The position numbers and the translations under genes were made by a program. Of a stretch of DNA of 64,000 nt, positions 32,400 to 40,733 are shown piece after piece. The stretch covers positions 1 through 64,000 of the forward strand of contig QOQW01000029.1 of the NCBI GenBank assembly GCA_003327425.1. The letters are read 5' to 3'. The stretch comes from Candidatus Ozemibacter sibiricus. Its GTDB lineage: Bacteria; Muiribacteriota; Ozemobacteria; Ozemobacterales; Ozemobacteraceae. The notes under the pieces are model-generated. The model worked only from the letters and a program-made list of their open reading frames with translations. It was not told where the DNA came from and did no database searches. The first letter of the stretch is position 1, and every line of letters starts with the position of its first letter.

Positions 32400-32757
32400 C
32401 GCTGTCCCCTCCTTGACCCGCCGGCCGCCACCTGGCCGTCAGCTCCGCTGCCTGGCCGCCCTTGGTGGGCGGCAAGCCCCGCCTGATCAAAAGAACCAAC
32501 GAGGTGGGACGGCGATCCTCCCACGGCAACCGCTGCCTGCCGCGGCCAGACGGGCTGGGCGGTCGGTGCGCGACCACCAGCTCGCAGGGAGGAAGACCCA
32601 CCCCCCGCGGGGCCAGGCCCAGCGGCCCCGGTCCGGGCCCGGGCCCCTTCATTGTGGCTCCGGGTCCGGTCGGCGAGAGCGTTTGAGCGATGCTTCATTT
32701 TTTTTCGATGACCATCAATCTTTTTTTGCCCTTCGCGCATAGTGAGGGTGAACGACC
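32400..32757. other. Intergenic region upstream of ECF sigma operon
   Basis: About 360 bases, GC-rich with several short C/G palindromes to 32655, then two T-runs (32697-32704 and 32721-32727) just upstream of the sigma gene. No gene is supported and no ECF-type GGAAC -35 element was recognised. Confidence 0.4.
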
Positions 32758-33315
32758 ATGATGAACACCGAATCGAACACCACGACGAACGACTGGGATG
32801 CCCTGATGCGGGCCGGGCTGGCCGGCGACCGGGCCGCCCTGACCGACCTGCTGGTCGCCCTCGAGAAGCCCCTGTTCAGCTACCTCTTCCGGTTGTGCCG
32901 CAACCCGGAGATCGCCGAAGATCTCCTGCAGGAGACGCTGGTCACCGTCGTCACCAAACGCGACTCCTGGGACCCGTCCCGCCCCCTGCGCCCCTGGGTC
33001 TACACCATCGCCCGCCACAAGTTCCTCGAACATCGCCGGCGGTCGCGCCAGGTGGTGGCGCTGGCACGGCCTGAGACGATCCCGGCGCCGACGGCCGGCA
33101 GCCAGCCGTCGTCGGATCGCCACGACCTGCAGCAGGCCCTGGCCACCCTCAACGAGCCGATCCGCGAAGCCTTCCTGCTCAAGCACTTCGCCCGCCTGTC
33201 CTTCGAAGAAGTCGCCGCCATCCAGGAGATCCCGGTGCCCACCGCCAAATCCCGCGTGCGCTTCGCCGTGCAGAAGCTCCGCGACCTGCTGGGAGAAGAC
33301 CATGCCAACGACTGA
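32758..33315 (+). CDS. ECF-type RNA polymerase sigma factor
   Basis: A 185-residue sigma factor. Region 2 (about 10-95) contains LFSYLFRLCRNPEIAEDLLQETLVTVV and WVYTIARHKFLEHRRR; region 4 (about 125-178) contains LNEPIREAFLLKHFARLSFEEVAAI with a helix-turn-helix. It directs RNA polymerase to a specialised promoter set. AGGGTGA lies six bases before the first of two adjacent ATGs. Its last 14 bases overlap the next gene, an anti-sigma factor, in the standard sigma/anti-sigma arrangement. The third gene of the unit is a secretion/pilus ATPase, suggesting control of envelope machinery. Confidence 0.9.
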   Translation: MMNTESNTTTNDWDALMRAGLAGDRAALTDLLVALEKPLFSYLFRLCRNPEIAEDLLQETLVTVVTKRDSWDPSRPLRPWVYTIARHKFLEHRRRSRQVVALARPETIPAPTAGSQPSSDRHDLQQALATLNEPIREAFLLKHFARLSFEEVAAIQEIPVPTAKSRVRFAVQKLRDLLGEDHAND

Positions 33316-33910
33316 CTGCTTGAACGAAGACCTCCTGCTCGACCTCTACTACGGCGAACTGCCCGCCGCCCGGGGCGAAGACGCCGTCCCCACCGTGGCC
33401 GAGGCCCACGCCCATCTGGCCGGCTGCGCCACCTGCCGCGCCGCCTGGGATGCCCTGCGTCGCCACCTCGACCGCCTCGGCCCGACGGCCGACCCGGTGC
33501 CGGCCCCCCGCGGCCGCGCCCTGACCGCGGCGCTGCGCACGCTGGGGCTCGCCCCGGCCGAGGCGCGCCCGTTGCCGAGCCCCTCGGCGCCACGGCCCCT
33601 TCCCACTGGCGCCACGGTCTTCCCGACCGACATCCCCAGCGACCTGTGGCCGACGTCCGGTCGAGCCGTCACCGCTGGCCAGCCCGGCGCCATCATGACC
33701 CTCGAAGAGGTCGCCGACGAGCTGCGGGTCACCGTCGACCAGGCCCGCCACCTGCTCGGCGAGCTGCCCTACCTGAACATCGGCGGCGCCATCCGCATCC
33801 GGCGCGCCACGTTCGAGGCCTTCCTCGAGAAGATGGAAGAAGAGTCCCGCCGCCCTGCTCTCGCATTCGATCTCGGACATCCGGTCCTGCGTCGTCAGGG
33901 CCTCATCTGA
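33302..33910 (+). CDS. Zinc-finger anti-sigma factor fused to excisionase-like HTH
   Basis: A 202-residue protein. Residues 1-60 are a zinc-binding anti-sigma (ZAS) domain with H38-x3-C42-x2-C45 (AHLAGCATCRAAW). A Pro/Ala linker follows (60-128), with no transmembrane helix. Residues 130-177 form an excisionase/MerR-type helix-turn-helix (MTLEEVADELRVT, then LPYLNIGGAIRIRRATFEAFLEK). A cytoplasmic anti-sigma with its own DNA-binding domain is uncommon; it could bind sigma and promoter DNA at once. It overlaps the sigma gene by 14 bases and the GspF/GspE-like gene follows 16 bases later. Confidence 0.82.
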   Translation: MPTTDCLNEDLLLDLYYGELPAARGEDAVPTVAEAHAHLAGCATCRAAWDALRRHLDRLGPTADPVPAPRGRALTAALRTLGLAPAEARPLPSPSAPRPLPTGATVFPTDIPSDLWPTSGRAVTAGQPGAIMTLEEVADELRVTVDQARHLLGELPYLNIGGAIRIRRATFEAFLEKMEEESRRPALAFDLGHPVLRRQGLI

Positions 33911-33926
33911 AGCAAGGAGGTTCCCC

Positions 33927-35432
33927 ATGTCCACCACCCTGAAGGAAGCGGTCGCCACCTTCTCCGAGAAATTCGGGTTCCTGCTCGGGTCCGGGGTTCC
34001 CCTGGTGCCTGCCCTCGAGACCATCCTCGCCGAAACCGACGAACTGCGTCTGCAGGAGGTCCTGCGCCGCGTTCTGGTTGCCATCGCCGACGGCACCCGC
34101 TTCGGAGACGCCCTGGCCGCCTTCCCCGACGTCTTCTCGCCGTCGTTCCTCAGCATGGCCCAGGCCGCCGAACACCAAGGCACGCTCGACACCATGATGG
34201 GCAAGATCGCCCATGGCGTGCGGGCCGGACTGATCCCCATCGGCGGGCCGGTGGTCGATCCCGCCGATCCCACCGGCGCGGCGATCCGCGCCGCGCTCGA
34301 TCGCCTGCTCGAGACGGCGGTTGCCCGAGGCGCCTCCGACCTGCATCTGGTGCCGGTTCCCGCCGGGCTGGCGGCCGCCTGCCGCGTCGAGGGCAAGCTC
34401 GTCGATCTGGAGACCTTCCCGGTGGCCATGCGGGAACCCATGATCAATCAGGTCAAACGGCTCGCCCACCTCGACGTCGGCGAGAAATGGCTGACCCAGG
34501 ACGGTCGCATGGTGCTGACCATCGCCGGCCGGACGGTCGACGCGCGGGTCAACTGCCTGCCGGTCGCCCTCGGCGAGAAGCTGACGATCACGCTGCTGCG
34601 CCAGGAACCCTTCCAGGTCGACCTCGGACAGATCTTCCCCGACCCCGCCGAGCGGCAGGCCTTCCTCGACCTGCTCAGCGTCCCTTCGGGACTCGTCGTC
34701 ATCGCCGGGCCGAGCGGGTCGGGCAAGACCACGACGGCCTATGCCGCCCTCAAGGTGCTGCGCGAGCGCGGTCTGGCCGTCACCGCCATCGAGCCGACGA
34801 TCGGCATGATCGTCGAAGGCGTGGCCCAGGCCCCGGTCCGACCGCACCTCGGCATGACCTACGGCCAGCTCCTCGATGCCGCCGAGCGCACCGATGCCGA
34901 CGCGCTCTACGTCGGCGACATTCCAGATGCCGGCGTGATGGGGAAAGTGCTCAAAGCGTCGTTGAACGGGCGGCTGGTCATCGTCCATCTGCCTGCCACC
35001 AGCGTCGCCGACGCCATTCGCCGGCTGCTCGCCCTGAACGCCCCGCCCCACCTGCTGGCTTCGGCCCTCTCGGGCGTGGTGGTGCAGCGCCTGGTACGCA
35101 AGGTCTGCCCGACCTGCGCCCGCGAGGCCAAGGTCAAGAAGGCCGATCTGCAAGCGCTGGGCTGGGCGGGCGGGAGGCTCGAGGCCCGCGAAGGGCAAGG
35201 CTGCGAGTCGTGCAACCGCTCCGGCTACCGTGGCCGCCTCGCCCTCTACGAGATCTTCGCGGCCGACAAGCCCTTCAAGGACGGCCTGGCCCAGGCCGAT
35301 GCCGCCGCGGTCGGCGGGCTGGTCCGCGCCGCTCTGCCTCGCTCCCTGAGCCAGGCGGGGGCCGCTCGCATCGCCGACGGCACCACCACCCTGGCCGAAG
35401 TCCGCCGCGCCCTGCGCGATGACGAGCCCTGA
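33927..35432 (+). CDS. GspF-GspE/PilB-like fusion ATPase
   Basis: A 501-residue protein joining two secretion/pilus parts. Residues 8-100 resemble half of a GspF/PilC inner-membrane platform domain (FLLGSGVPLVPALETILAET, FGDALAAFPDVFSPSFLSMAQAAEHQG) but stop before any transmembrane helix. Residues 115-500 are a GspE/PilB-like ATPase with Walker A GPSGSGKTTT (261-270) and the CxxC pairs at 394/397 and 426/429. The Asp box is IEPTI instead of EDPVE, Walker B reads VGDIPD instead of GEIRD, and the His box lacks its histidine context. Nucleotide binding seems kept but hydrolysis may be weak. AAGGAGG precedes ATG by eight bases. It ends the sigma/anti-sigma unit. Confidence 0.82.
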   Translation: MSTTLKEAVATFSEKFGFLLGSGVPLVPALETILAETDELRLQEVLRRVLVAIADGTRFGDALAAFPDVFSPSFLSMAQAAEHQGTLDTMMGKIAHGVRAGLIPIGGPVVDPADPTGAAIRAALDRLLETAVARGASDLHLVPVPAGLAAACRVEGKLVDLETFPVAMREPMINQVKRLAHLDVGEKWLTQDGRMVLTIAGRTVDARVNCLPVALGEKLTITLLRQEPFQVDLGQIFPDPAERQAFLDLLSVPSGLVVIAGPSGSGKTTTAYAALKVLRERGLAVTAIEPTIGMIVEGVAQAPVRPHLGMTYGQLLDAAERTDADALYVGDIPDAGVMGKVLKASLNGRLVIVHLPATSVADAIRRLLALNAPPHLLASALSGVVVQRLVRKVCPTCAREAKVKKADLQALGWAGGRLEAREGQGCESCNRSGYRGRLALYEIFAADKPFKDGLAQADAAAVGGLVRAALPRSLSQAGAARIADGTTTLAEVRRALRDDEP

Positions 35433-35576: not shown

Positions 35577-36152
35577 TCAGTCGTCGATCTCGCCGGCCTC
35601 GCCGGCCGCGGGAGCGGGGGGCGGGGCGGTCTCGTCGGCGGCAGCCTGGGCGGCCGCGGCCTTCCAGGCGTGCAGACAGGTTTCGGGAGCATTCTGCACG
35701 TCGGGCACTCCCTCGAGGGTGACCACCTTGCCGGTCGGCGACAACACGACCAGGCAGGGAATGCTGGCTGGTTTGAACCGCGCCTTCAACGCCTCGGCCG
35801 CCGGCGTCTTGTACCCTGCCGTGAGCCATGGCATTTTCGTTGTCGTCATGTAGGTCCACATTTCGGCTTCGGATTTGTCGTAACTGATCAACACGATCTC
35901 GATATCGGCCTGGTTGAGGTTGCGGAAGGTGATCAGGCGCGGGGTGAACCGTCGGCAGTCGGGGCACCAGTGCCCAGAGAAATACAGCCCGACCAATTTC
36001 CCTTCGAGCACCTTGGGTCCGACGTTTTCGCCTTTGGCGTTCCAGAGGCCGTCGGGGAACATTTCTTCCCAGACCGTGCCGGCCGAGACCGACGCGGGTG
36101 ATCCCATTATGAGACACGCCAGCAGCAGGCAGATCGTCAGACGAGCAACCAT
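35577..36152 (-). CDS. Exported nucleoredoxin/tryparedoxin-like protein
   Basis: A 191-residue secreted thioredoxin-fold protein. The signal peptide (LTICLLLACLIMGSPASVSAG) probably ends after SVSA. The WCPDC active site is at 62-66 within GLYFSGHWCPDCRRFTP, a pattern typical of nucleoredoxin/tryparedoxin-like proteins. The cis-proline region is ASIPCLVVL. The C-terminus is an acidic Pro/Ala tail. It should carry out thiol-disulfide exchange outside the cytoplasm. A paralogue with WCPPC lies at 38519-39061; the two flank a membrane protein and a phospholipase D-like gene on the same strand. Confidence 0.88.
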   Translation of the reverse strand: MVARLTICLLLACLIMGSPASVSAGTVWEEMFPDGLWNAKGENVGPKVLEGKLVGLYFSGHWCPDCRRFTPRLITFRNLNQADIEIVLISYDKSEAEMWTYMTTTKMPWLTAGYKTPAAEALKARFKPASIPCLVVLSPTGKVVTLEGVPDVQNAPETCLHAWKAAAAQAAADETAPPPAPAAGEAGEIDD

Positions 36153-37048: not shown

Positions 37049-38437
37049 TCACTTTTCGCCGAGGTTTTCGACCAGCGAGGCATGGTCGATCACACGAACA
37101 ACCCGGCGGTTCTGCACCTCGATGGTGCGGAACGGGCGGAGGGTGCGGCCGTCGATGAGGCGGATGGTCTTGTTCTTCCCTTCGGCGTCGGAACGCGGCA
37201 CCTCGTAGAGCGGACGCACGGTCAGGAAGGTGGCGACATCGAGCGCCAGGGGATCGGCCAGGTCGCGGCGGAAGACTGCGAGCAGGCGGCGACCCAGGGT
37301 CGCCGAGCGGAAGATCACGCCCAGCTCTCGCGAATAGAGCAGTCCCGATTTGCTGATGTTGTTGGACCCGATGAAGATCAGGTCGCCATCGACCACCATG
37401 GCCTTGGAATGCATCATGCCACGGTTGAAGATGCGACCGTAGGGCGCCAGCGACCAGATCCTGGCGCGCACGGGCGAGCCGGCGAGCGCGCGGATGGCCT
37501 GGCGCGCCGGTTCGTAGAGCGGATTGGGATCGGACCAGGAACGTTCTTCGATCAGCAGCGTGACCTCGACCCCGCGGGCGGCGGCCGCCAGCAGTTCCTC
37601 ATGGATGCCGCCGAACGCGGTGTAGTAGTCGATCTCATAGACGATCTCCCGCTTCGCCTGCCGGATCATGGCGATGAGGGCGGGCTGCAGGTTGGGAACC
37701 GCCGGATGGTTGAGACCGGCGGGGGCGGCTTCGACGATCAGGAAGTCGAGCGGCCCGGCGCGCGGCACGGTGGGGATCTCGGGCGGAGACTGCGTTTCGC
37801 CGCCGGCTTTGGCCCAGTCGTGGTCGAACAGCGCCCGCAGGGTCGCGGCCACCCGCTCATCGTCGATCAGGACGTTGGTTTCGCGATTCTCGTTGAGCCC
37901 CATGTAGCTGTAGTTGACGCCGCCGAAGGTCGAGAAGCGCCGATCGACGATGATGGTCTTGGTATGGACCGCCCCATACAGGAAACTGTCTTTCTTCAGA
38001 TCGAGGAACCGGACCTGGACGTTGGGGAAGGCCGCCAGTTCGGCGGCGTACTGCTCATCTTTGTGCGTGAGTTCGGCCAGGATGATGCGCATGGCCACGC
38101 CGCGTCGCGCCGCCCGATCGAGGGCTCGCACGAATCGGGGCGAGAGATTCTTCTGGATGTAGTAGGCCTCGAACAGGATCTCGTGGCGAGCGGCTTCGAT
38201 CAGCTCGACCATGGCCCGCTCCGAGGTGAGGTGGTCGGGGGTGACCAGTTCAGGCGGTTCGGTAAAGAACAGCCGGATCCTGGCATCGCCCTGGTCGACC
38301 AAGCGGGGCAAGGCGGTCTCGTCGAACCCCGTGATGGCCCCGACGGCGGACGCCCCCCATAGGAAAAGCGCCAGAAAGGGCAGGCAGCCAAGGAGCGGGC
38401 GGATGGGCGAGCGGTGGAGGCGTGGCCAGTGGATCAT
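37049..38437 (-). CDS. Exported phospholipase D-like protein
   Basis: A 462-residue PLD-superfamily protein with two catalytic HKD motifs, HTKTIIVD at 158-165 and HSKAMVVD at 343-350, each followed by a Gly/Ser strand (FGGVNYS, FIGSNNIS). An N-terminal signal peptide or anchor (PLLGCLPFLALFLWGASAVGA) is present. The two-motif arrangement matches cardiolipin synthase/PLD enzymes, but export argues for a phospholipase or phosphodiesterase outside the cytoplasm. A short unrelated C-terminal region follows the second motif. AGGAAGG precedes ATG. The upstream gene on the same strand is an exported thioredoxin. Confidence 0.88.
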   Translation of the reverse strand: MIHWPRLHRSPIRPLLGCLPFLALFLWGASAVGAITGFDETALPRLVDQGDARIRLFFTEPPELVTPDHLTSERAMVELIEAARHEILFEAYYIQKNLSPRFVRALDRAARRGVAMRIILAELTHKDEQYAAELAAFPNVQVRFLDLKKDSFLYGAVHTKTIIVDRRFSTFGGVNYSYMGLNENRETNVLIDDERVAATLRALFDHDWAKAGGETQSPPEIPTVPRAGPLDFLIVEAAPAGLNHPAVPNLQPALIAMIRQAKREIVYEIDYYTAFGGIHEELLAAAARGVEVTLLIEERSWSDPNPLYEPARQAIRALAGSPVRARIWSLAPYGRIFNRGMMHSKAMVVDGDLIFIGSNNISKSGLLYSRELGVIFRSATLGRRLLAVFRRDLADPLALDVATFLTVRPLYEVPRSDAEGKNKTIRLIDGRTLRPFRTIEVQNRRVVRVIDHASLVENLGEK

Positions 38438-38518: not shown

Positions 38519-39061
38519 TCAGCGGCCGGCGGCGGCCTTCCAATCGGCGAGGCAGGAATCGGGCTTCTTGGTGACATCGGCCCGGCCATCTTCGGTGATG
38601 GTCTTGCCGTCGGGCCCGAGAATGATCAGGGTCGGAATGCTGCGCACGCCGTATTTCTGGGCGAGCGCATTCGCGGCCTCGCTGCGATGCTCGAGGGTGT
38701 ACCACTTCATCCCCACTTCCTTCATGTATTCGAACTGGGCTTCCCTGTTCTTGTCGGAACTGATGAAGACGACTTCGAAGTCGCTGGTGTGGGCATCGCG
38801 GAAAGCGACCAGCATGGGCGAGAACATGCGGCAGGGGGGGCACCAGTGGGCCGAGAAATACAGGCCGACCAGCTTGCCATTCAGCACGTCGGGCTCCACC
38901 TTGTTCCCTTCGGGGTCGAGCAGGCCATCAGGGAAGAAGGTCTTCCAGACCGATTCCTGGGCCGGCGCCGGAGTCGGTGCCGGATCGGACGTCTGGGCCC
39001 CGACCGCCCCGGCCAGGACGAACAGGAACAACGACGCAACGAACAGAGCATGGTTTTTCAT
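38519..39061 (-). CDS. Exported nucleoredoxin-like thioredoxin, paralogue 2
   Basis: A 180-residue secreted thioredoxin-fold protein. The signal peptide (HALFVASLFLFVLAGAVGAQ) ends near VGA. WCPPC is at 73-77 within GLYFSAHWCPPCRMFSP. SIPTLIILGPDGKTI holds the cis-proline. It shares the insert pattern FFPDGLLDPEGNKV with the 35577-36152 paralogue, so the two arose by duplication. GGAGG lies nine bases upstream of ATG. It heads the minus-strand group with the PLD-like gene. Confidence 0.9.
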   Translation of the reverse strand: MKNHALFVASLFLFVLAGAVGAQTSDPAPTPAPAQESVWKTFFPDGLLDPEGNKVEPDVLNGKLVGLYFSAHWCPPCRMFSPMLVAFRDAHTSDFEVVFISSDKNREAQFEYMKEVGMKWYTLEHRSEAANALAQKYGVRSIPTLIILGPDGKTITEDGRADVTKKPDSCLADWKAAAGR

Positions 39062-39321: not shown

Positions 39322-39441
39322 ATGTTCCTGCTAGGCCTGAGCGTTTTGGTCATCTTCTTCCTCGCCCTGGTCACCGAACCCGAGAAGTGGCCGGACAAGA
39401 TCGCCGCGTTCCTGAGGGAGCACCATCTGCATCATGGCTGA
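39322..39441 (+). CDS. 39-residue membrane peptide
   Basis: A very short gene that is easy to miss. GGAGGTGG lies a few bases upstream of ATG 39322. The product has a hydrophobic N-terminus (MFLLGLSVLVIFFLALV) and a charged, His-rich C-terminus (KIAAFLREHHLHHG). Its stop overlaps the start of the merR-like gene by eight bases, which argues for translational coupling and for being real. An in-frame ATG five codons upstream is less well placed. Function unknown; small membrane peptides often tune a membrane partner. Confidence 0.6.
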   Translation: MFLLGLSVLVIFFLALVTEPEKWPDKIAAFLREHHLHHG

Positions 39442-39955
39442 GTTCCTGACCATCGCTGAAGTGAGCCGGCTGACCGGCCTGGCTCCGCACACCATCCGCT
39501 TCTACGAACGCCAGTTCCCCACCCTGCTCACCGTCGAGCGGTCGCCCGGCGGCCACCGCCAGTACCGGGCGTCCCACCTCGAAGCCTTGCGACGCATCAT
39601 CCACCTGCTTCGGCACGAGAAGCTGAGCATCCGGGAAGCTCAGCTCCGGCTGGGCGAATCCCCGCCGGCCCCGGCCCGCCCCGGCGGGCGCGAGGACCGC
39701 CGCGCCGCCGAGCCGGCGGTCGAGGTCCTGCAACAGACGCTGGCCGCAGTTCTGGCCAAGATCGAGGACCTGAGCCGCCAGAATGCCCACCTCGACGCGC
39801 TGGTCGAGGATCTGCGCCGTCAGGCCAGCGCCCCGGCCCGCGCCGAGCTGCTCGCCGAGATCGCCCGCTACCGGGAAGAGAACCGGCGGTCGGTGCGCAT
39901 CTACGAGGAGTTCCTGCAGCGCAGCCGCCGGCTCGCCGACCCCACTCCCTCCTGA
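39434..39955 (+). CDS. MerR family transcriptional regulator
   Basis: A 173-residue regulator. Residues 5-75 are a MerR winged helix-turn-helix (TIAEVSRLTGLAPHTIRFYE, ERSPGGHRQYRASHLEALRRI). A Pro/Ala-rich linker follows, then a coiled coil from about 92 to 165 for dimerisation. No metal- or ligand-binding cysteines are present, resembling HspR/MlrA-like members. It overlaps the membrane peptide gene by eight bases and precedes the ComB-like gene by 25 bases, so all three are likely one transcript. Its targets are unknown. Confidence 0.88.
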   Translation: MAEFLTIAEVSRLTGLAPHTIRFYERQFPTLLTVERSPGGHRQYRASHLEALRRIIHLLRHEKLSIREAQLRLGESPPAPARPGGREDRRAAEPAVEVLQQTLAAVLAKIEDLSRQNAHLDALVEDLRRQASAPARAELLAEIARYREENRRSVRIYEEFLQRSRRLADPTPS

Positions 39956-39980
39956 GCGCCAGTCGCCCGGGATCATCGCC

Positions 39981-40733
39981 ATGCATATCGATGTCGCCTT
40001 CACCCCTGCCGAGGTCCAGAACATCGCCGCCAAGGTCTGTCTGGTGGTCGACGTCATCCGCGCCACCTCGACCCTCGCGGTCATCGCCTCCCGCCGGCCT
40101 GACCGCCTGCTGATCACACCCACCGTCCAGAAGGCGGTCAAGTTCGCGGCGCAGCAGGCGGTCCACCCGGTGCTGTGCGGCGAGCGCGGCGGGCTGGCCC
40201 CCGAGGGTTTCGACTACGGCAACAGCCCGCGCGAGTTCACCGACGTCGATCTGACCGGCAAGACGGTGGTCTTCACCTCGAGCAATGGGGCCCGGGCCAT
40301 CGCCGACGTCCACCTGGCCCCGGCCGTCCTGCTGGCTTCCTTCCTGAATGCCGGGGCCGCCGTCGAGGCCGCCCTGACGCGCGCCTATCGCGATCACCTC
40401 GACGTGCTGGTGGTCTGCGCCGGCCGCGACGAGAAGTTCGCCATCGATGACGCCTACTGCGCGGGCTATCTGATTTCCCTGCTGCTCGGCCTCATTCCGG
40501 CCGACAAGACGTTCACCCTCGGCGAAGGCGGCCAGGCCGCCCTGGCCCTGGTCGGCTATTTCCGAGATGCCGAGAAGCTGCTTCGCGAGTCGGGGGCTGG
40601 CCAAGCCGTCATCGAGATCGGCCTGGAAGAGGACATTCCCTTCCTGCTGCAGAAAGACCTGCTCACCGCCGTTCCCACTCTGCAAACCCGCGACCAATCG
40701 CCGGTCGACTACCCCTTCACTCTGTTGATCTGA
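39981..40733 (+). CDS. comB: ComB-like 2-phosphosulfolactate phosphatase
   Basis: A 250-residue member of the ComB family (acid phosphatase of the coenzyme M pathway in methanogens, also widespread in bacteria without that pathway). Recognisable blocks: VDVIRATSTLAVI near the N-terminus, LCGERGGLAPEGFDYGNSP, VVFTSSNGARAI and VVCAGRDEKFAIDDAYCAG. It would remove phosphate from 2-phosphosulfolactate or a related compound using magnesium. No other coenzyme M gene is nearby, so the physiological substrate is uncertain. ATG 39981 is chosen because family similarity starts there; the ribosome binding site is weak (GGGA). Confidence 0.85.
   Translation: MHIDVAFTPAEVQNIAAKVCLVVDVIRATSTLAVIASRRPDRLLITPTVQKAVKFAAQQAVHPVLCGERGGLAPEGFDYGNSPREFTDVDLTGKTVVFTSSNGARAIADVHLAPAVLLASFLNAGAAVEAALTRAYRDHLDVLVVCAGRDEKFAIDDAYCAGYLISLLLGLIPADKTFTLGEGGQAALALVGYFRDAEKLLRESGAGQAVIEIGLEEDIPFLLQKDLLTAVPTLQTRDQSPVDYPFTLLI

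Follow-up and report, generated by a model that had tools for sequence, protein, structure and literature searches.

A conserved ECF sigma/anti-sigma unit in Riflebacteria that may have recruited a GspE-type ATPase as a regulator

The window analyzed here is a 64-kb stretch of a 5.7-Mb genome assembled in 58 contigs; the closest named relatives are Candidatus Ozemobacteraceae / Candidatus Riflebacteria MAGs. It contains three genes that we read as a cytosolic switch built on an ECF sigma factor. This switch is conserved and probably autoregulated, and would have recruited an ATPase of the type IV pilus/type II secretion kind as its regulator. The genes encode an ECF sigma factor, an anti-sigma factor and a fusion of a GspF domain to a GspE/PilB ATPase. 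The open reading frames, strands and spacings are exactly those of the tight unit in the original prediction: the sigma and anti-sigma frames overlap by 14 nt (spacing −14), and the fusion gene follows after a gap of 16 nt (+16), with an AGGAGG ribosome site immediately 5′ of it. None of the three proteins has a membrane segment, and all are predicted to be soluble. The features of the locus are:

32714..32743, plus strand: putative autoregulatory ECF-type promoter, ATCAATC (32714-32720), 16-nt spacer, GCATAGT (32737-32743)
32758..33315, plus strand: ECF sigma factor of 185 aa with regions 2 and 4 (Pfam/NCBIfam)
33302..33910, plus strand: soluble anti-sigma factor, 202 aa, made up of helices of ZAS type, a flexible linker, an HTH_17 winged helix and a conserved C-terminal tail
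33413..33436, plus strand: zinc anti-sigma motif H38-x3-C42-x2-C45, invariant alignment columns
33695..33832, plus strand: HTH_17 (BldC/excisionase-like) domain, residues 132-177 (Pfam PF12728, E 1.4e-7)
33890..33907, plus strand: anti-sigma C-terminal tail, RRQGLI in the window
33927..35432, plus strand: GspF-GspE fusion, 501 aa, soluble
33927..34223, plus strand: GspF/PilC-type domain (the first cytoplasmic one), residues 1-99, with six helices and without transmembrane segment (PDB sequence matches PilC 3jc8 and GspF 2vmb/3c1q; AF2 helices)
34281..35408, plus strand: GspE/PilB core (N2D and ATPase domain), residues 119-494 (Pfam T2SSE; Foldseek PilF/PilB/EpsE)
34707..34730, plus strand: Walker A GPSGSGKT, residues 261-268, conserved
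34917..34919, plus strand: D331, Asp where motors have the catalytic Glu of Walker B (GDIPD here, GEIRD there)

Profile searches of 40 Riflebacteria genomes, with gene calling on the fetched neighborhoods, recovered the sigma factor, anti-sigma factor and ATPase together in 18 genomes, as 19 units from six families. Bearers are G000, G001 and G002 (genus g1); G005, G012, G017 and G021 (g4); G023, G030, G034 and G039 (f3), the last with two copies; G024 and G028 (f4); G025, G029 and G031 (f5); G036 (f8); and G026 (f6), where the gene order has changed and the ATPase is still adjacent. In G038 the ATPase lies at a contig end. One of the two copies in G039 (L136 8165-10305; L137 7986-10362) has a GspF domain and the other has none. 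The sigma and anti-sigma genes overlap by 4-14 nt in 18 of the 19 units, and the ATPase gene follows the anti-sigma gene by 2-208 nt, mostly less than 20 nt. The recurrence of this gene order across the phylum, for which the original prediction had proposed a search, makes the unit more than a chance arrangement, and its existence and conservation are near certain. Furthermore, no ATPase of these units lies inside a full pilus operon, each being linked to the same sigma/anti-sigma pair. The distance matrices of the three proteins correlate at 0.92-0.94, values that still include shared species history.

The genes flanking the unit vary from family to family. The ATPase might be a hitch-hiker, sharing a transcript with a sigma/anti-sigma pair that works on its own and to which its function is unrelated. 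However, the linkage has been kept over six families in these differing neighborhoods, even after rearrangement, and the ATPase clade has a single origin, which leaves this explanation very improbable. Beyond Riflebacteria, two anti-sigma searches were run at different E-value limits: in 247 genomes of the phylum with a Desulfobacula hit no full-length match to the anti-sigma profile was obtained, matches there being confined to either the HTH or the N-terminal portion, and in 291 genomes of the phylum with an Oligoflexia hit a search without positive control gave nothing at E ≤ 1e-13. A phage origin was rejected (viral contigs gave GspE-core fragments only), as were a plasmid origin (only matches below 60% identity, the annotated ones listed being ordinary GspE/PulE) and a role in anti-phage defense (PADLOC gave no sigma or anti-sigma match, and the sole hits of the ATPase were weak P-loop ones, at 16.8-18.3 bits). 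Neither the unit nor a GspF-GspE fusion beside a sigma factor was found described in the open-access full-text literature, to which the search was confined.

The window sigma factor consists of region 2 and region 4 only, as in the ECF sigma factors (group 4), with Pfam matches to Sigma70_r2 (2e-15) and r4_2 (1e-9) and an NCBIfam match to TIGR02937 of 80 bits against a cutoff of 42.9. A sigma-70 promoter scan upstream of the operon gave no match. Aligned upstream regions of g1 and g4 have in common an element upstream of the sigma gene, ATCAATCYTT-N13-GCATAnT, which in G002 (g1) has one extra spacer base. In six genomes a perfect match occurs once per genome, at the operon. A motif search over five families recovered the 16-nt spacing in four of them, the exception being f3, with the elements TTTGAAC/GGATA in f4 and ATTGAAC/GGATA in f5; none of 60 Markov-shuffled sets scored as high, by a small margin. 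On this evidence the operon is likely autoregulated by its own sigma factor. We looked for a wider regulon with ATCAATCYTT-N13-GCATAnT at up to two mismatches in eight genomes and with a shorter core at one mismatch in five. Weaker matches were mostly inside genes (18/21 and 17/24 in two counts), we saw no conservation of any of them from genome to genome, and we therefore report no pilus targets from either search. The proposed search for the motif upstream of pilus genes thus gave no target in these genomes, and the term "controlling" in the original prediction holds for likely autoregulation and not for wider control, because the element is perfect only at the operon.

We identify the middle protein as an anti-sigma factor because of its H-x3-C-x2-C motif, the presence of zf-HC2 above cutoff in its G024, G028 and G036 orthologues, the weak matches of its profile to RsiW and other anti-sigma factors (E 0.004-0.05), and the overlap of its gene with the sigma gene; there is in addition a weak NCBIfam anti-sigma match. 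An N-terminal helical domain with this motif is the hallmark of class I (ZAS) anti-sigma factors, and the window protein has it. Across the units the N-terminal half is variable, and the zinc motif is absent from four anti-sigma factors (G030, G039a, G023 and G034). We count this absence against a regulatory reading of the unit, together with the lack of the unit in about half of the phylum's genomes, among them f7 and the majority of genera in f1, the family of the window. All 19 anti-sigma factors are predicted to be soluble, and by alignment all 19 have the C-terminal HTH_17-like domain, which in G026 is weak and without Pfam hit; the original prediction makes no mention of this domain. In the AF2 model of the window protein, a disordered linker joins four helices to a winged helix, the last being nearest to the BldC-DNA complexes 6ama/6amk (Foldseek rmsd 1.6 Å over 49 columns); with E about 0.05, we take this fold match as supportive but not as strong. 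The chain ends, after a variable linker, in the rough consensus L-x-[RK]-x-[VAI]-[IV]-COOH, the final residue being I or V in 17 of 19. To judge from its sequence, this tail is possibly a docking peptide or a degron. ZAS helices, HTH_17 domain and C-terminal tail together are an added anti-sigma architecture.

The identity of the third gene product was correctly predicted: Pfam places T2SSF (residues 12-96, 1e-13) and T2SSE (residues 119-494, 2e-68) on one 501-aa frame. Its AF2 model (mean pLDDT 87) has a six-helix N-terminal domain, a low-confidence linker at 108-114, an N2D and an ATPase domain. The closest PDB folds are PilF, PilB and EpsE (Foldseek), and the N-terminal 100 residues match the cytoplasmic domains of PilC and GspF. 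A GspF/PilC platform has two cytoplasmic domains and transmembrane helices; the fusion has a single domain without such helices, and its GspF part is therefore not a platform. In a tree with 43 other ATPases of the phylum, for which no root was inferred and which has some long branches, the 19 unit ATPases form one clade apart from all PilB/GspE (branch support 97/88), at about 30% identity to the ordinary motors. The GspF domain is present in 15 of the 19, the unfused members being G023, G034, G039b and G026. Pfam scans of unit ATPases, the window protein included, gave no N1 (MshEN) domain, through which GspE/PilB motors dock on GspL/PilM; the ordinary PilB of the family tested has it.

Like a GspE/PilB motor, the window fusion has Walker A and the zinc tetracysteine, and across the clade the Walker A Lys, the Arg preceding Walker B and the four zinc Cys are kept in 19/19. 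The remaining catalytic positions have diverged. The catalytic Glu is kept in 10 unit ATPases and replaced in nine, the GEIR arginine is kept in six, and the first and second His of the His box are kept in 12 and 11, respectively, whereas all of these residues are kept in 39/39 ordinary motors of the phylum. The ordinary-motor set used for the tree and this residue table was chosen partly by GE[IMVL]R[DN]; a recount unfiltered for the motif found GE(I/M)RD in 40/40. The window fusion departs from the motor consensus at the Walker B, Asp and His boxes alike (GDIPD, IEPTIG and HLPAT). Replacement of the Glu falls into three groups, namely the window with G002, g4, and f5; G001 retains it, unlike the window and G002. 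The whole catalytic set is kept in all four unfused members and, among the fused ones, in G028 only. The g4 ATPases are among the most altered, with the catalytic set gone, and their dN/dS of 0.05-0.08 indicates purifying selection and marks them as working genes. Together, these losses in several lineages suggest, at the level of sequence comparison, a motor turned regulator.

GspE/PilB genes are expected beside pilin, platform and secretin genes. The 64-kb window contains no pilin-type N-methylation motif, and ten flanking proteins scanned include no pilus or secretion part, in line with the claim that no pilin or platform gene lies nearby. A partial exception among the units is G024, in which genes for a GspF and a secretin-domain protein, along with two pilin-like genes divergent from the unit, lie about 3-8 kb from it. 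On this contig (C44, L072; 956-2584 and 13858-14914) the unit is flanked by genes for a 308-aa two-domain GspF, a secretin-domain protein that is short, and two pilin-like proteins with N-methylation; a GAF-HD (HD_5) protein is encoded in between. Other neighbors recur near some units. In the window, two related thioredoxin-like genes on the minus strand (35577-36152 and 38519-39061), whose products have apparent signal peptides, flank a phospholipase-D-like gene (37049-38437), and a gene of thioredoxin-like length and a PLD-like gene lie downstream of the unit in G001 as well. Near the unit in G001 and G002, as in the window (39434-40733), the gene of a MerR-type regulator precedes one for a ComB-like 2-phosphosulpholactate phosphatase.

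The GspE fold, the active-site residues kept in G023, G034, G039b, G026 and G028, and the G024 neighborhood would all fit a working motor that serves, in trans, a pilus or secretion system encoded elsewhere and is regulated by its own sigma factor. We consider this improbable, given the catalytic losses in three lineages, the lack of N1 for docking on GspL/PilM, a GspF part without membrane helices and the lack of constant pilus neighbors across families. A standard-motor role is disfavored because catalysis was lost in three lineages with selection kept and because N1 and membrane helices are missing. Together with the linkage to sigma and anti-sigma factors, these features support the regulatory, non-motor role originally suggested for the ATPase.

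What the sequences themselves show is the linkage, the predicted solubility, the single origin of the ATPases, the retention of P-loop, Arg and Cys residues alongside partial loss of those for hydrolysis, and a GspF domain in place of N1. For the view that the ATPase is a regulator acting upstream of, or on, the anti-sigma factor, we see about an even chance. In such a switch, the N-terminal helices of the anti-sigma factor would hold the sigma factor, and its HTH_17 domain may bind DNA. The ATPase, as a nucleotide-bound GspE-like ring, would bind the anti-sigma factor and so free or hold the sigma factor, the conserved C-terminal tail of the anti-sigma factor being a candidate contact for the ring. 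The GspF domain, whose place in pilus machines is on the motor, may dock on pilus or secretion motors or on its own ring; docking of this kind would couple the switch to the state of the pilus or secretion machinery. The freed sigma factor would then drive its own operon, closing a feedback switch. With a complete catalytic set in G028 and in each of the four unfused members, hydrolysis may matter in part of the family. A bolder proposal, on the unlikely side in our judgment, is a new class of bacterial signal transduction. Here a duplicate of a pilus/secretion motor, fused to the docking domain of its own platform and with part of its catalysis lost, would be a receptor gated by nucleotide; it would sense what state type IV filament machines are in and, by way of a DNA-binding anti-sigma factor, determine sigma activity.

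The main rival reverses the direction of the pathway. Since the promoter-like element is unique, the sigma factor may act mainly on its own operon, and the ATPase would then be an output of the switch, perhaps its chief product, and not an input. Active sigma factor would then make a GspF-GspE decoy that enters or caps PilB/GspE rings, throttling pili or secretion. The losses of catalytic Glu and His would resemble dominant-negative motor alleles, domains such as this GspF domain make contact with motor rings, and ordinary motors are numerous in all genomes. However, unfused members with full catalysis would not poison a ring, and mixed rings are uncertain at about 30% identity. We hold this decoy rather unlikely, and the current evidence does not separate it from the regulator model.

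Compared with known systems, the unit resembles an ECF sigma factor with a soluble ZAS-type (class I) anti-sigma factor in its two-domain sigma factor, overlapping anti-sigma gene, H-x3-C-x2-C motif and promoter-like element upstream. It differs from such pairs in the C-terminal HTH_17 winged helix and conserved tail of its anti-sigma factor and in a third gene, always present, for a GspE-type ATPase; the main text of the class I anti-sigma paper contains none of the terms helix-turn-helix, HTH or excisionase (PMC7406223). The ATPase in turn shares with PilB/GspE the N2D and ATPase core, Walker A, zinc tetracysteine and PilF/PilB/EpsE fold, but has a fused GspF domain instead of N1/MshEN, no pilus operon and, in several lineages, no catalytic Glu, Asp-box or His-box residues. 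With the GspF/PilC platform it shares the first cytoplasmic domain (about 85 residues matched), here single and free of transmembrane helices. A signaling role of a pilus ATPase, as we propose, has a precedent in Myxococcus xanthus, where PilB is a signaling protein for EPS regulation and an ATP-hydrolysis-deficient variant still signals (PMC5544727); unlike the unit ATPase, that protein is a true motor signaling upstream of the Dif pathway, with no sigma factor operon. According to a review, direct regulatory inputs of PilB have been reported only in M. xanthus (PMC11656802). The WhiG sigma/anti-sigma switch is likewise a sigma/anti-sigma system, tied there to type IV pili, but it has a WhiG sigma factor, a c-di-GMP ligand and no ATPase, and for the Riflebacteria unit our regulon searches gave no pilus target.

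Secretion and pilus ATPases are generally treated as motors. If our reading is correct, the GspE/PilB fold is used here as a dedicated regulator, in a phylum-wide operon with a sigma and an anti-sigma factor, along an apparent gradient, with unfused members of intact catalysis at one end and fused members that have lost catalytic residues at the other. Riflebacteria have 11-39 profile matches per genome to GspE/PilB/PilT-type ATPases, GspF-domain matches included, and the G000 genome gives 32 matches to the GspF-GspE query, reflecting many pilus/secretion ATPase and platform genes. The unit would then be a first handle on how Riflebacteria might regulate their many GspE/PilB/PilT-type ATPases.
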